From the NCBI GenBank assembly GCA_029935705.1, contig JAOZJU010000011.1, positions 1-39,735 of the forward strand: a DNA stretch of 39,735 bases, in the 5' to 3' direction. Source of the DNA: Arcobacteraceae bacterium. Lineage in GTDB: Bacteria > Campylobacterota > Campylobacteria > Campylobacterales > Arcobacteraceae. The notes beneath the pieces are model-generated. The model did not search any database and was not told the origin of the DNA. It worked only from the letters and a program-made list of their open reading frames with translations. Of this stretch, positions 34,016 to 39,735 are shown piece after piece. Numbering within the stretch: the first letter of the stretch is position 1; each line of letters opens with the position of its first letter. The position numbers were made by a program, and so were the translations under genes.

Positions 34016-34795
34016 TTAGAACTTGACATTAAGTCCATAAAATGCACCTTTGGTGTCAATATCGATATTTAAATCATCTACAAGACTATCTGGTATAGTG
34101 ATGTTTTGAACTCTATATCCAAGGTCAAGATTGAAATCCACAAATACATTTGAAAATGGCAATCTATAACTTAGTTTTATAAAATTGTCAGATACTTCTG
34201 CCCCATCATACGATATAAATTTTGTTGTTGCTTCAACTTTGATAGGAGTAAATGGCACATCTAAAATGGCATTTAGATATACAAGCGGTAGTGTCTCATC
34301 GAACTCTGCTTTTTCGCTATTTGTCGCATCTTTTAGCTCTATAAAGCCATCATATTTTTTCATATCTAAACCGAAGTTTATATCAAATACTCCACCAGTA
34401 GCTAAACCTATAAATGGCACTGACCAATAAGCTATCATATCAAGCTGTTTTATATCTGTAGTCATAGTTGCTGGTCCATTGAAATTAAATTTACCAAATC
34501 TATAATTAACAACACCATCACCAGATATTTTATAATCAACCTTTTCAATTCTAATGTTTGGAATTATTGGTACAAAATGATTAAAATCAACATATAGATA
34601 ACTACTTGAATCTTTTTCAAAATCAAATTTATCCAAGTCTATTTCTGTTCCTATGTTTGAACCATCGCTATATTTGATAGCTCCTGTCATAGTTGGCTCC
34701 CAAACCCCAGCTCCAAGTTCGAGGTCTATACCGCTTTTTGCACTCAAAGTTGTAGCGAAAAACACTACAACAAATATCTTAAATATATTTTTCAT
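34016..34795 (-). CDS. TIGR04219-like outer-membrane beta-barrel protein
   Basis: Exported protein of 259 residues with signal peptide MKNIFKIFVVVFFATTLSA and a mature start GIDLELGAGVWEPTMTG. The mature part alternates hydrophobic and polar strands and ends in a final strand GAFYGLNVKF with C-terminal Phe, the signal for outer-membrane insertion. The pattern fits the TIGR04219 family common in Campylobacterota. Function unknown; it might be a small porin-like barrel. Upstream, TTAAG and TATTAT (34819-34840) are spaced eleven instead of ten bases. It precedes hisH by 17 bases. Confidence 0.8.
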   Translation of the reverse strand: MKNIFKIFVVVFFATTLSAKSGIDLELGAGVWEPTMTGAIKYSDGSNIGTEIDLDKFDFEKDSSSYLYVDFNHFVPIIPNIRIEKVDYKISGDGVVNYRFGKFNFNGPATMTTDIKQLDMIAYWSVPFIGLATGGVFDINFGLDMKKYDGFIELKDATNSEKAEFDETLPLVYLNAILDVPFTPIKVEATTKFISYDGAEVSDNFIKLSYRLPFSNVFVDFNLDLGYRVQNITIPDSLVDDLNIDIDTKGAFYGLNVKF

Positions 34796-34857: not shown

Positions 34858-36027
34858 CTAATGCAACTCTTTGTTAAGCTTAATCTCTCTTTCGCTTCTT
34901 TTGGCAACTATCTTGCCTGTAAGTGAATCTTGTCTAAAATGAATACCATGTAGACCTTGTAGTTGTGATGCTTTGACTATATTTGATAGTTTGACCTCTT
35001 TGTTTGCATCTGTTATTTTTTTGATCTCATCATCGTTTATTGATATTTTTGTTCCTGCAAAAATAGACAAACCACCATCAACTATACATCCATCTCCAAG
35101 TGGTATACCTGTAGTTGAGTTAGCACCCAACAATGTATTTTGACCTATAGATATAGGGTTGCCATCTGTTCCGCTTAATACCCCCAATATAGATGCTCCA
35201 CCACCTATATCGCTACCTGCTCCTACTATAGCAGAACTAGATATTCGCCCCTCTACCATAACAGCACCAGTAGTTCCTGCATTGAAGTTTATATAGCTAG
35301 CACCAGGCATAACAGTAGTGCCAGGTGCAAGTGATGCCCCAAATCTTACTTTGCTAGTATCTAGTATCCTTGTGTTGTCTGCTGGAATGATATGTGATAA
35401 AAATCGTGGAAATTTATCTACCATATCAATAACTGGATATTGACCTGTCATTTTTAAAGCAATCTCATTTTCTCTTAACCAATCCAACTCTATAGGCATA
35501 GTGCCACTCCATGCTGAATTGTGAAGCAAAGAAAATGCTCCATCAAGATTTAAACTTCTAAGTGGAGCTTTGTTTAAAGACAAAGCATAAAGTTTGAGAT
35601 AAACTGTTTCTATTGATTTTGGCTTTTTATCTTCAAATATAAACACAGCTTTATAAGATGACAACTCTTTGCCCTCAAGCTCCCTTATCACTTGAACATT
35701 TTGATGGTTTTGACCCACTGCTTTATCTAAATATGGAGCAAAATTCCCCATGGCTATTTTGACAAAATCTTCATTTAATTCACATACAAGCTCACTGTCT
35801 GTGCAGTTTACTGCTATATTGCTTTCATTTAGTGCATTTAAAAATATAGCCGCACTTCCTATATTTTCACCCCAATTTACCACTGGATATGTCGCTTGAA
35901 GTATCTTGTCCTTATTTAACTGACCTTTATCAATCCTTGTTATACCAAAACCTATAGGCTCTTTGAACCATGGAAGTGCTTTTATATCTTCAACTTTTTC
36001 TTTAAACTCATTTTCATTTTGTATCAT
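34858..36027 (-). CDS. dapD: Tetrahydrodipicolinate N-succinyltransferase
   Basis: Trimeric left-handed beta-helix enzyme of the lysine and meso-diaminopimelate pathway that transfers succinyl from succinyl-CoA. It has 389 residues, the longer form seen in Campylobacterota and Actinobacteria. Hexapeptide repeats run from about 225 to 325 ([51 protein letters not shown]). It overlaps murA by 14 bases, so two peptidoglycan precursor steps are coupled. Succinyl-CoA links it to SucCD. Ribosome binding site AAAAGGA. Confidence 0.94.
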
Positions 36028-37288
36028 ATTTTTTCCTTTTTATATCTATACCTATGTTTTTAAACTTATTTTCAAGATGCTCATAACCTCTATCAAGATG
36101 ATAGATCCTATCGATAGTAGTAGTAGAATCAGCAATTAAACTCGCGATAACAAGAGATGAGCTTGCACGAAGATCTGTAGCCATAACTTTTGTGCCTGTT
36201 AGTCTATCTGAACTATTTTCAATAGTTGCCGTGGTGCCATTTATAGATATTTTTGCACCCATTCTTTTAAGTTCCGCTATATGCATAAATCTATTTTCAA
36301 AAAGCCTCTCATCTATGACAGATGTGCCATTTGCTTGTGTGGCTACTGCCATAAATTGAGCTTGCATATCTGTAGGAAATCCAGGATATTCTGTAGTGAC
36401 GATATGCACTGGTTTTATCTCTTTTGTTGGCAAAATAGTGATAGTATCATCAGTCAATTCTATACCATAACCCATCTCTTCAAATTTTTCAATGATTGAT
36501 ATCATATGCTCTGGTTTTACATGAGTTACTGTAAGTGCACTATTTGTTATAGCTCCTACACACAAATATGTGCCAGCTTCTATTCTATCTGGTATGATAG
36601 TAAAATCTTTAAAATCAAGAAGTTTTTGATTGCTACCTTTGATCACAAGTGTATCAGTGCCAATACCTTTTATATCTACACCAGCATCCGATAGCACTTT
36701 GCATAGTTGCACAACTTCAGGCTCTTTTGCTACATTGATTAAAGTGGAGCTTCCATGAGCTAAAGCACATGCCATGATGATATTTTCACTTCCTGTTACT
36801 GTAATTTTGTCAAATACTATATTTGCACCCTTTAGGCCATCTTTACAAGTTGCTAATATATAACCATCTTTTATCTCTATCTTTGCACCTAATTTCTCCA
36901 AAGCACTCAAGTGCAAATCCACAGGCCTAGTGCCAATAGCACAGCCACCAGGAAGAGAGACTTCACAATGATTAAACCTACTAAGAAGCGGTCCTAATAC
37001 CAATATAGATGCTCTCATGGTTTTGACTATATCATATGTAGCAGTAGTTTTGTTGATTTTTGAACCATCTATTTTGATACAGTGTTTCTCTTTTGTATAT
37101 GAAGCACCCAGTATCTGCAGAAGTTTTAAAAGAGTATTTATATCTACAACATCTGGTAAGTTTTTTATAGCTATGCTATTTTTAGATAAAATAGTTGAAG
37201 CAAGAAGTGGCAAAGCTGCATTTTTTGCTCCGCTTATTCGCACCTTTCCGTTTGGTTTTTGGTTTGGTTCTATCTCTATATAATCCAT
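36014..37288 (-). CDS. murA: UDP-N-acetylglucosamine 1-carboxyvinyltransferase
   Basis: First committed step of peptidoglycan synthesis: adds enolpyruvate from PEP to UDP-GlcNAc. It has 424 residues. Active-site Cys116 in [16 protein letters not shown] (the fosfomycin target), Lys22 in [10 protein letters not shown], and the late [13 protein letters not shown] segment. It is first in the murA-dapD operon with a standard promoter and the strong site AAAAAGGAG. Confidence 0.97.
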
Positions 37289-37467: not shown

Positions 37468-37504
37468 CTAATCACAAGTGATCCCACACTCTACACCACA
37501 AACA
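37468..37504 (-). repeat. Direct repeat copy 1: 3' end of the small lipoprotein gene
   Basis: 37 bases including the stop codon, matching 37651-37687 at 32 positions. They code for the shared VCGxECGIxCD tail. Confidence 0.85.
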
Positions 37505-37629
37505 CCATTTTGTTCAGCAAAAGCATTGTTTGCCTCTTTGTCTTCATCTGTACTCATTCCACATCCGACAAAACCAAATAATAAAACTATTAGTATAGCT
37601 ATAGTTGTTTTAAATTTTAAATTTTTCAT
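37468..37629 (-). CDS. 53-residue lipoprotein with CGVECGITCD terminus
   Basis: Not a family I recognise. The frame reads MKNLKFKTTIAILIVLLFGF, then lipobox FVGC (lipidated Cys23), leaving a mature peptide of 31 residues. It ends in VCGVECGITCD, a Cys-x3-Cys-x3-Cys-Asp motif. The neighbouring larger lipoprotein ends in nearly the same residues. The start is supported by AAAGGA five bases upstream and by being 21 bases after that gene. It is the third gene of the envelope operon. The three cysteines could bind a metal, form disulfides in the periplasm, or be a modification site; all are guesses. Confidence 0.78.
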   Translation of the reverse strand: MKNLKFKTTIAILIVLLFGFVGCGMSTDEDKEANNAFAEQNGVCGVECGITCD

Positions 37630-37650
37630 TCTATTCCTTTGTTGTTAAAT

Positions 37651-37687
37651 CTAATCACAAATGATTCCGCACTCTGTACCACAAACA
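37651..37687 (-). repeat. Direct repeat copy 2: 3' end of the Ig-like lipoprotein gene
   Basis: Partner of 37468-37504. Of five differences, two are silent (Cys and Gly codons) and three change residues at the two variable positions of the tail. Confidence 0.85.
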
Positions 37688-38304
37688 GTTGGAACCGCAA
37701 CAACAATAGAAGTTGAAGCTATATCAGAGCCTAATTCATTTTTAGCGGTGATAGTATAGTTGTATGTGCCTGTATTGTTTGGAGTTCCACTAATAGTTCC
37801 AGTTGAAGTACTAAAAGCAAATCCATTGCTTATCGCCGGAGATATAGAGTAGCTTGTAGCTCTTCCGCCACTATTTCTTATGGTGATATTAGTAATAGCT
37901 TTGCCTACAGTAGCATTTGTCACTGTTGCACTTGGAGTGATATTTGGTGCACCTTCTGATGCAATAACATTTATGACAATACTAACTTGACTGCTTCCTG
38001 CATTGTTTGTAGCAGTAATTGTATAGTCAAATCTCCCTGCTGACAATGGCACACCACTTACTGTTCCTGTATTTGTATCAAATGTAAAACCATTAGAGAC
38101 TGATGGATTGATTGAGTAGCTATCTATATCGCCACCTGTATTGCTAATCTTTATATCATCTATCTTGATACCAACTTGGGCAGTTGTTGTTATTTTGCTT
38201 GCCTGTATTTGTGGTAGTAGCCCACTATTTTCACCAGTTTCATTGCTACATCCTGCAAATAACAATAAAAATAGTAAATTTATTTTGATTATAGTTGTTT
38301 TCAT
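37651..38304 (-). CDS. Lipoprotein with two Ig-like (He_PIG-type) domains and CGTECGIICD tail
   Basis: Surface or periplasmic lipoprotein of 217 residues. Signal with lipobox LFAGCSNE (lipidated Cys19). Two tandem domains of about 85 residues resemble putative Ig domains: each has a block like SYSINPSVSNGFTFDTNTG followed by TVSGVP or TISGTP and then YTITATN or YTITAKN. The C-terminus is VPTVCGTECGIICD. Ig-like domains usually mediate adhesion or protein contact. The ribosome binding site is AAGGAG; the gene follows the barrel protein gene by 13 bases. LspA and Lnt in this window would mature it. Confidence 0.82.
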   Translation of the reverse strand: MKTTIIKINLLFLLLFAGCSNETGENSGLLPQIQASKITTTAQVGIKIDDIKISNTGGDIDSYSINPSVSNGFTFDTNTGTVSGVPLSAGRFDYTITATNNAGSSQVSIVINVIASEGAPNITPSATVTNATVGKAITNITIRNSGGRATSYSISPAISNGFAFSTSTGTISGTPNNTGTYNYTITAKNELGSDIASTSIVVAVPTVCGTECGIICD

Positions 38305-38317
38305 CTTTTACTCCTTA

Positions 38318-39097
38318 TTATAGTTTAATCTTAATACCAACAAGCATACTAGGTCCAGTAGCTGTTTTTATATTTGTATTATAATTACCAATTTTTTTCT
38401 CTCCATCTAAATATGCGACATCTATTGTAACTTGGGCAAAAATTCCAAAACTTTTTGATATATCATTTCCTATATTTAAACCAATAGGCAACATTAAACC
38501 ATTTTGTTCAAAATCATTTACATATGGTTCTACTGCTTTTGTCTTAATATTTTTCATCTTAATCCCAGCAAATGGTGCAACATATAGATTCTTGTCAAAA
38601 TAGAAACGATTTTTGACATTTATACCCATCTCAACAATTGTTGTATCTTCAAATCTCTCTTCATCTGGATTTTTTAAACTAAATTTTCCCCCAGAGTAAC
38701 TTGACACATATGGTGTGATATATGCATATCTCATACCCAATTTTGACAGTGAAAGATCAATTCCCAACATAAAACCAGTATTTGAAGGGGTTGATGATAT
38801 TTTTCTACCTAAAATTTCATCCATATCAAATTTTGTCTCCCCTATACCAATGATCAGCTCATTTGGTACAACTTTTGGTCTTCTTTTTGTTCTGATTAGC
38901 CTCTTTTTTGATTTTTTATAATTTTTTCTACATTTGATATAATTTCTTCTCTCTCTTTTACATCTTACTTTCTTTTTTTTCTTTTTGATACATTTTATAT
39001 ATCTTATTTTTTGTATTTTACAGCTTTTTGCTGCTTGTGCACCTGTAGAGATCAACCCTAAAATGACAATGACAAACAATAAATTTCTTAATTTCAT
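38318..39097 (-). CDS. Outer-membrane beta-barrel protein with basic Cys-containing N-terminal region
   Basis: Exported protein of 259 residues, family not recognised. The signal peptide is MKLRNLLFVIVILGLISTGAQA. It is followed by a strongly basic stretch (about 24-75) with four cysteines in the pattern SCKIQK, IKCIKKKKKKV, RCKRERR, IKCRKNYKK. The remaining 185 residues look like an eight-strand barrel (IGIGETKFDMDEIL, GFMLGIDLSLSKLGMRYAYI) ending MLVGIKIKL. I chose ATG 39095-39097 because AAAGG is six bases before it and it directly precedes the signal peptide; an in-frame ATG two codons earlier and one at 39130 fit less well. First gene of an operon with two lipoproteins. Confidence 0.78.
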   Translation of the reverse strand: MKLRNLLFVIVILGLISTGAQAAKSCKIQKIRYIKCIKKKKKKVRCKRERRNYIKCRKNYKKSKKRLIRTKRRPKVVPNELIIGIGETKFDMDEILGRKISSTPSNTGFMLGIDLSLSKLGMRYAYITPYVSSYSGGKFSLKNPDEERFEDTTIVEMGINVKNRFYFDKNLYVAPFAGIKMKNIKTKAVEPYVNDFEQNGLMLPIGLNIGNDISKSFGIFAQVTIDVAYLDGEKKIGNYNTNIKTATGPSMLVGIKIKL

Positions 39098-39121: not shown

Positions 39122-39142
39122 ATTATACAATCTTTTATTTAA
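39122..39142 (-). promoter_or_regulatory. Promoter of the envelope operon
   Basis: Minus strand: TTAAA, ten bases ending in GATTG, then TATAAT (39122-39127). Predicted start near 39115. Confidence 0.6.
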
Positions 39143-39167
39143 TATAACAACTAAAATTGAATATTTT

Positions 39168-39318: not shown

Positions 39319-39395
39319 CGGAGTGTAGCGCAGTCTGGTAGCGCACCTGGTTTGGGACCAGGGGGTCGGAGGTTCGAACCCTCTCACTCCGACCA
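39319..39395 (+). tRNA. tRNA-Pro(TGG)
   Basis: 77 bases including encoded CCA. Acceptor CGGAGTG pairs with CACTCCG; anticodon stem CCTGG/CCAGG with loop TTTGGGA gives anticodon TGG; T loop TTCGAAC. Confidence 0.97.
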
Positions 39396-39406
39396 TTGTT
39401 ATGTAT

Positions 39407-39484
39407 GGTAGGTATAGCTCAGTTGGTTAGAGCGTCTGGTTGTGGTTCAGAAGGTCGTGGGTTCGATCCCCATTACTTACCCCA
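39407..39484 (+). tRNA. tRNA-His(GTG)
   Basis: 78 bases including the extra 5' G (position -1, pairing with C73) typical of tRNA-His, and encoded CCA. Anticodon stem TCTGG/TCAGA with loop TTGTGGT gives GTG. Confidence 0.97.
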
Positions 39485-39500
39485 TTTACTCCTAATTTGT

Positions 39501-39577
<77 letters not shown>

Positions 39578-39620
39578 CCTTTGATCTTGTCTTTTATGAC
39601 AATATCAACTTATTTTTTGT

Positions 39621-39705
39621 GCGGATGTGGTGAAATTGGTATACACGCTAGACTTAGGATCTAGTGCTTTACGGCGTGAAGGTTCAAGTCCTTTCATCCG
39701 CACCA
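39621..39705 (+). tRNA. tRNA-Leu(TAG)
   Basis: 85 bases with a long variable arm and encoded CCA. Acceptor GCGGATG/CATCCGC; anticodon stem CTAGA/TCTAG with loop CTTAGGA gives TAG. Confidence 0.97.
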
Positions 39706-39735
39706 TCAACAAATATATTAAACTATTCAATTATC

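Follow-up and report, generated by a model that had tools for sequence, protein, structure and literature searches.

The window, the whole 39,735-nt stretch of Arcobacteraceae DNA analysed, carried three adjacent genes on its minus strand (Table 1). The gaps between them were 13 nt (barrel gene to Ig lipoprotein gene) and 21 nt (Ig lipoprotein gene to the gene of the 53-aa lipoprotein). Re-reading of the ORFs agreed with the initial annotation on the number of genes, their spacing, and the VCGxECGIxCD terminus of both lipoproteins. The operon lay between a stretch judged by eye to be rich in tRNA genes (39320-39735) and a murA-like gene (36014-37288). A single promoter had been proposed for it; the -35/-10-like pair upstream of the barrel gene is compatible with this, and the promoter stays putative, as the upstream region contained 12 promoter-like sites versus 12.4 expected from shuffling. 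Also near the operon, positions 34016-34795 encoded an exported, beta-rich protein of 259 aa with zero cysteines, probably an outer-membrane protein.

Table 1. Genes and sequence features of the operon in the window.
Feature	Position	Strand	Description
Barrel gene	38318-39097	minus	259 aa, ATG start; signal peptide, basic CX9C hairpin, linker, 8-stranded OmpW/OmpA-like barrel ending ...GIKIKL
CX9C hairpin of the barrel	38930-39022	minus	C-x9-C-x9-C-x9-C, Cys 26/36/46/56; two helices predicted
Ig lipoprotein gene	37651-38304	minus	217 aa; lipobox LFAGC19, two He_PIG/PKD-like Ig domains, tri-Cys tail
Ig lipoprotein tail	37651-37686	minus	VCGTECGIICD-stop
Minimal lipoprotein gene	37468-37629	minus	53 aa; lipobox GFVGC23, acidic linker MSTDEDKE..., tail directly after
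53-aa lipoprotein tail	37468-37503	minus	VCGVECGITCD-stop
Candidate operon promoter	39122-39150	minus	TTGTTA-17-TATAAT, some 25 nt before the ATG of the barrel gene; as a class not above chance

Pfam analysis upheld the Ig-like reading of the 217-aa lipoprotein, in which two He_PIG stretches were found; the protein as a whole exceeded the cut-off (51.6 bits, cut-off 24). With its LFAGC lipobox and its He_PIG domains, the protein belongs to the Ig-repeat lipoproteins.

The barrel protein had no cysteines other than the four of its hairpin, the second and fourth of which were preceded in the manner Y-x-x-C. Residues 23-78 had a net charge of +28. Alignment of 11 hairpins from proteins of the genus showed that the four cysteines were invariant. 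In the Pfam search of the barrel, OMP_b-brl fell below the threshold, and the N-terminal matches to COX6B (E=0.043), CX9C (E=0.58) and Pet191 were all below the cut-off. The AlphaFold2 model, built with eight relatives (pLDDT 81.7), showed helices to residue 38 and from 43 to 69, followed by an 8-stranded barrel, and Foldseek matched it to OmpW (4.4e-6, TMt 0.69) and OmpA (9e-6). The fold of a small OmpW/OmpA-like barrel was thus present in the model, with no sequence match above the Pfam cut-off. The hairpin cysteines lay symmetrically about the turn in the model, so that pairing of 26 with 56 and of 36 with 46 is the natural inference; on this geometry, disulfides joining the first to the fourth and the second to the third cysteine could form. 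The initial annotation had suggested disulfide- or metal-linked assembly of all three products, but in the model the four barrel cysteines are positioned for pairing among themselves and need not be the partner of the tail.

Sequence searches found the barrel family in three genomes of the genus (G000, which carries the window, G038 and G039) and not in the fourth, G037. A search of the genome contig collection with the barrel returned two loci only, both from Arcobacteraceae MAGs, and CX9C-pattern matches outside the genus, judged by eye, mostly looked like repeats or pentapeptide-like sequence. By these searches, close relatives of the barrel are limited to this one Arcobacteraceae genus. 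A barrel with a basic two-Cys (C-x14-C) N-terminal stretch was encoded upstream of two tail-bearing giant lipoproteins (L088:1991-2731 and L091:2247-2969), and it may be a further relative of the hairpin barrels. A different conserved, Cys-bearing barrel with an overlapping lipoprotein gene was observed in three genomes (L096:1069-4336, L098:7512-10557 and L099:6699-9936); the L096 lipoprotein contained DUF285 (BspA-like) repeats, and the Cys tail was missing from all three lipoproteins. At L099:3243-4513 (G038 contig C35), two overlapping genes encoded exported proteins rich in Lys and Cys, of which one carried a CAP/SCP domain at its C-terminus (1.3e-18); this is a further case in the genus of N-termini that are basic, helical and Cys-rich.

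The combination of barrel and lipoprotein recurred within the genus. G000 had two further CX9C barrels: the second, on contig C38, was followed by a Big_2 lipoprotein truncated at the end of the contig, the remainder of which was not found elsewhere in the assembly, and the third, on contig C64, by a Rib/He_PIG lipoprotein that was also cut. On G038 contig C14, CX9C barrels alternated with two Big_2-type lipoproteins ending in FCLETSPIYDCDGQTCE and LCHETAPLYDCGIVCDQ; the orthologous lipoprotein on G039 contig C73 ended in FCLETLPAYNCGGQICE. Within the CX9C-barrel clusters, the tail was present on all five lipoproteins with a complete 3' end (two in the window, two at L083 and one at L084), while many other tail lipoproteins had no adjoining barrel (L089/L093, L094/L095). 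The CX9C barrel adjoined only some of the tail-bearing lipoproteins.

At L081:403-1973 (G000 contig C38), upstream of the second CX9C barrel by about 3.4 kb, a sub-threshold bAvd-like ORF overlapped a reverse transcriptase (RVT_1, 4.5e-21), an arrangement that is the layout of a diversity-generating retroelement; no template/variable repeat pair for this element was found in the stretches read. An apparent second element of this type was located at L126:9488-16452 (G041 contig C26), with several candidate targets ending in ...AVRLVRGGE, followed by seven tandem copies of a 170-202-aa ORF (MMITKEDLTQAIL...).

The exact string VCGxECGIxCD was found in this pair only, but the motif exceeds what chance would give. 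Among 399 genomes of the order, CGxECGxxCD-stop occurred twice in G000 and otherwise in two spurious ORFs of 22-25 aa, and the exact motif was rejected as a widespread signal. A looser terminal tri-Cys tail was present on 18 lipoproteins in all four genomes of the genus (2 in G000, 1 in G037, 8 in G038 and 7 in G039), and the exact string is one version of it. These 18 tails correspond to about ten independent genes, as the four genomes represent four species of which G038 and G039 are close relatives. All 18 ended lipoproteins, three of them on 5'-truncated pieces; the assemblies are drafts in many contigs, and their gaps fall exactly in the repeat genes. The tail-bearing lipoproteins were 53 to 2946 aa long, varied in domain content and stopped 1-5 residues past the last tail cysteine. 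The large Ig-repeat lipoproteins of G038 and G039 (768-2946 aa) ended in G-x-C-x3-C-[VI]-D-N-C-[DE] or closely similar sequences, as in PCKLDCVDNCDNY and NCQNDCVDNCENPH.

At least three cysteines in the last 22 residues were found in 17 of 216 ORFs, an enrichment biased by the choice of stretches for Ig-domain or motif matches; the 17 comprised 13 recognised lipoproteins, 3 pieces of such lipoprotein genes cut by gaps or contig ends and 1 ABC ATPase. In whole-genome pattern searches, the in-frame C-terminal matches read in the genus were all on these lipoproteins. Outside the genus, the C...C[VI]DNC matches read were short out-of-frame ORFs, and one match at the phylum level was an unrelated 97-aa ORF. 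A plasmid search with the C-terminal domain gave no match. Matches to a profile of the last domain and tail extended through the tail only within the genus, and a Big_5-like domain without the tail was found in four other Arcobacteraceae genera and in one G000 protein (contig C16). In the searches made, the tail is an addition of this genus and was found nowhere else. Four internal copies of the tail followed Ig-like domains (one in G037, two in G038 and one in G039); the G037 copy had lost the third cysteine (GPCAMDCVDNL), and every terminal copy kept three.

Alignment of nine C-terminal regions showed 12 invariant columns, six of which were in the tail (G186, C188, C192, D194, N195 and C196). 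Between G038 and G039 orthologues, the tail cysteines were conserved in 15/15 cells versus 70/95 at the other positions of the compared tail segment (p=0.02). In the window, the last 36 nt of the two lipoprotein genes were identical at 31/36 positions; with codon differences at five positions only, the likeness of the tails is due to duplication and not to chance. This identity, and the clear tandem paralogy, would fit a tail passively spread by duplicated lipoprotein 3' ends and having hardly any function in itself, with the 53-aa gene as a deletion remnant. Such an origin would also suit the resemblance of the 53-aa protein to an internally deleted Big_2 lipoprotein. It is nevertheless quite unlikely: paralogues only about 29-49% identical over 199 aa kept all three cysteines and DNC, the orthologues kept every tail cysteine, and the 53-aa gene retained a ribosome-binding site, a lipobox and an in-frame tail. 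Judged from this conservation, the tail is under selection.

The two lipoproteins had been described as otherwise unrelated, which did not hold as worded. The first 39-40 residues of the 53-aa lipoprotein aligned without gaps to the N-termini of Big_2 lipoproteins of the genus (scores 75, 76 and 62, shuffles about 22-23 +/- 5), and it scored 40 against the neighbouring Ig lipoprotein (shuffled 24 +/- 5). Because its N-terminus is colinear with those of the Big_2 lipoproteins, it is a minimal member consisting of signal, lipid cysteine, acidic linker and tail.

The initial annotation took the shared C-terminus for a recognition or modification tag. What was supported is a conserved C-terminal tag, always on exported lipoproteins and often beside a Cys-bearing barrel, whose exact string is confined to the pair. 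As a processing or sorting tag, the acidic tri-Cys terminus would be the target of a dedicated enzyme for export or modification (lipidation, cleavage or outer-membrane translocation), encoded elsewhere in the genomes. The terminal position on 18 lipoproteins of such different length and domain content argues for it, as do the presence of the tail on a 53-aa lipoprotein with little else besides signal and linker, and the loss of the third cysteine in one of the internal copies and in none of the terminal ones. However, no enzyme recurred beside the tail genes in the stretches read, no NCBIfam CTERM model matched, the hydrophobic helix and basic end of the LPXTG, PEP-CTERM and MYXO-CTERM signals (PMC11980579) are absent, N-terminal lipidation already anchors these lipoproteins, and internal copies occur. 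A sorting tag is rather unlikely on this balance.

Each window lipoprotein had its lipobox cysteine and exactly three others, all in the tail. This odd number of unlipidated cysteines, unsatisfiable within one chain, leads one to expect from the sequence an interchain disulfide, a metal, a modification or a free thiol. The spacing C-x3-C-x3-C was found in 12 of the 18 tails, and CuA has the same spacing in its C-x3-C-x3-H. Together with the odd thiol number and the acidic neighbours of the conserved cysteines, this would suit three thiolates and flanking Asp/Glu binding Cu, Zn or Fe-S, either to capture metal at the surface or to cap the last domain structurally. Against a metal site, the spacing varied among paralogues (C-x8-C-x4-C, C-x3-C-x4-C, C-x1-C-x6-C), no His or Met ligand was conserved, and no metal genes were seen beside the tail genes. 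The structure model of the terminal domain and tail of a large lipoprotein was also of low confidence (last block pLDDT about 37), and metal binding is considered unlikely.

The preferred reading, in which the tail serves as an intermolecular linker through its thiols at the outer membrane, is held tentatively, as possible rather than probable. The lineage-specific module, multiplied in one genus, would comprise a small 8-stranded outer-membrane barrel, whose basic helical hairpin of the disulfide type would lie in the periplasm, followed by Ig-repeat lipoproteins. The Ig-like repeats may form surface or periplasmic adhesin stalks, which would end in a flexible, acidic three-Cys tail. This tail most likely acts between molecules, because the only three unlipidated cysteines of the mature window lipoproteins sit in it. 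Periplasmic oxidation would give interchain disulfides, either tail-to-tail between the long and the 53-aa lipoprotein, which would be co-expressed, or by exchange with the barrel hairpin. Such links may cluster or anchor the stalks at the outer membrane, with the 53-aa protein as a short linker or terminator subunit of the assemblies.

Two near-identical tails from one operon count in favour of the thiol linker, as do the 18 terminal tails confined to lipoproteins, the conservation of the tail cysteines, the three unlipidated cysteines of each window lipoprotein and the tails on every complete lipoprotein of the CX9C-barrel clusters. The opposite charges of the barrel stretch and of the mature window lipoproteins (-6 and -5), together with the operon linkage, speak for a position near the barrel. 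The barrel cysteines look self-paired and several tail lipoproteins have no adjacent barrel, so tail-to-tail bonding is at least as likely as tail-to-barrel bonding. Against the linker, the same placement of the barrel cysteines leaves no obvious free thiol on the barrel, the variable tail spacing fits disulfides and equally a loosely defined tag, and the internal copies after Ig-like domains imply that the element need not be terminal. A genus-limited tail on mostly Ig-repeat lipoproteins, often beside a hairpin barrel, suggests lineage-specific linking or tagging of envelope proteins. The wider proposal, an undescribed Gram-negative C-terminal tag that cross-links, metal-loads or modifies Ig-repeat outer-membrane lipoproteins in company with twin-CX9C barrel hairpins, is somewhat doubtful.

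Compared with known systems, the lipoprotein family resembles the He_PIG, Big_2 and Big_5 Ig-repeat lipoproteins in its lipobox and Ig-like repeats, with members above the Pfam cut-offs, and is set apart from them by the terminal tri-Cys tail, which the Big_5 relatives in the other genera lack. The arrangement of a barrel gene beside lipoprotein genes is like that of Slam/type XI secretion, in which Slam has a DUF560 barrel and cluster 1 cargo ends in an 8-stranded beta-barrel domain (PMC12282271). Unlike these, the window barrel is a small 8-stranded OmpW/OmpA-like protein with a Cys hairpin, and the lipoprotein has only Ig-like domains and the tail, with no terminal cargo beta-barrel domain; DUF560/Slam was rejected, as Pfam gave no DUF560 match to the barrel.

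The tail is like LPXTG, PEP-CTERM, GlyGly-CTERM and MYXO-CTERM in that a short, conserved signature stands at the C-terminus of many exported proteins that otherwise differ, and like MYXO-CTERM in its invariant cysteine and confinement to one lineage. LPXTG-, PEP- and MYXO-type signals require a hydrophobic helix and a basic end (PMC11980579). The tail differs in having three cysteines and neither a transmembrane helix nor a basic terminal cluster, and its proteins differ in already possessing a lipobox, with no sortase-like enzyme seen nearby. The known CTERM families were rejected, none being among the NCBIfam matches up to E=1, and the initial statement that no known sorting signal was recognised agrees with this: the tail is not a known C-terminal sorting signal. 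If it is a functional tag, a cysteine-based C-terminal device would join the short list of Gram-negative surface-protein signals, and the 53-aa lipoprotein would be a natural minimal substrate with which the tag is easy to test.

The barrel hairpin resembles the twin-CX9C (CHCH) hairpins of the mitochondrial intermembrane space (COA6, NDUFA8, Pet191, Cox6B) in its antiparallel helices, C-x9-C pairs and aromatic-x-x-C motif. Two C-x9-C pairs in a helical hairpin were found in the 11 sequences and in the AlphaFold2 helices, and the weak profile matches fell on exactly such proteins; the profile of the 11 hairpins against the PDB gave NDUFA8, the yeast chain 9iho_e and COA6 (E=0.02-4), and neither these nor the Pfam matches amounted to significant homology. 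The hairpin differs from the mitochondrial ones in that it is bacterial and rich in Lys/Arg, is exported by means of a signal peptide and forms a fusion with the outer-membrane barrel that follows. Mia40 is not conserved in prokaryotes (PMC5509380). The likeness is probably convergent, and CX9C hairpins on bacterial outer-membrane barrels would give bacteria a counterpart of the disulfide hairpins found in the mitochondrial intermembrane space.
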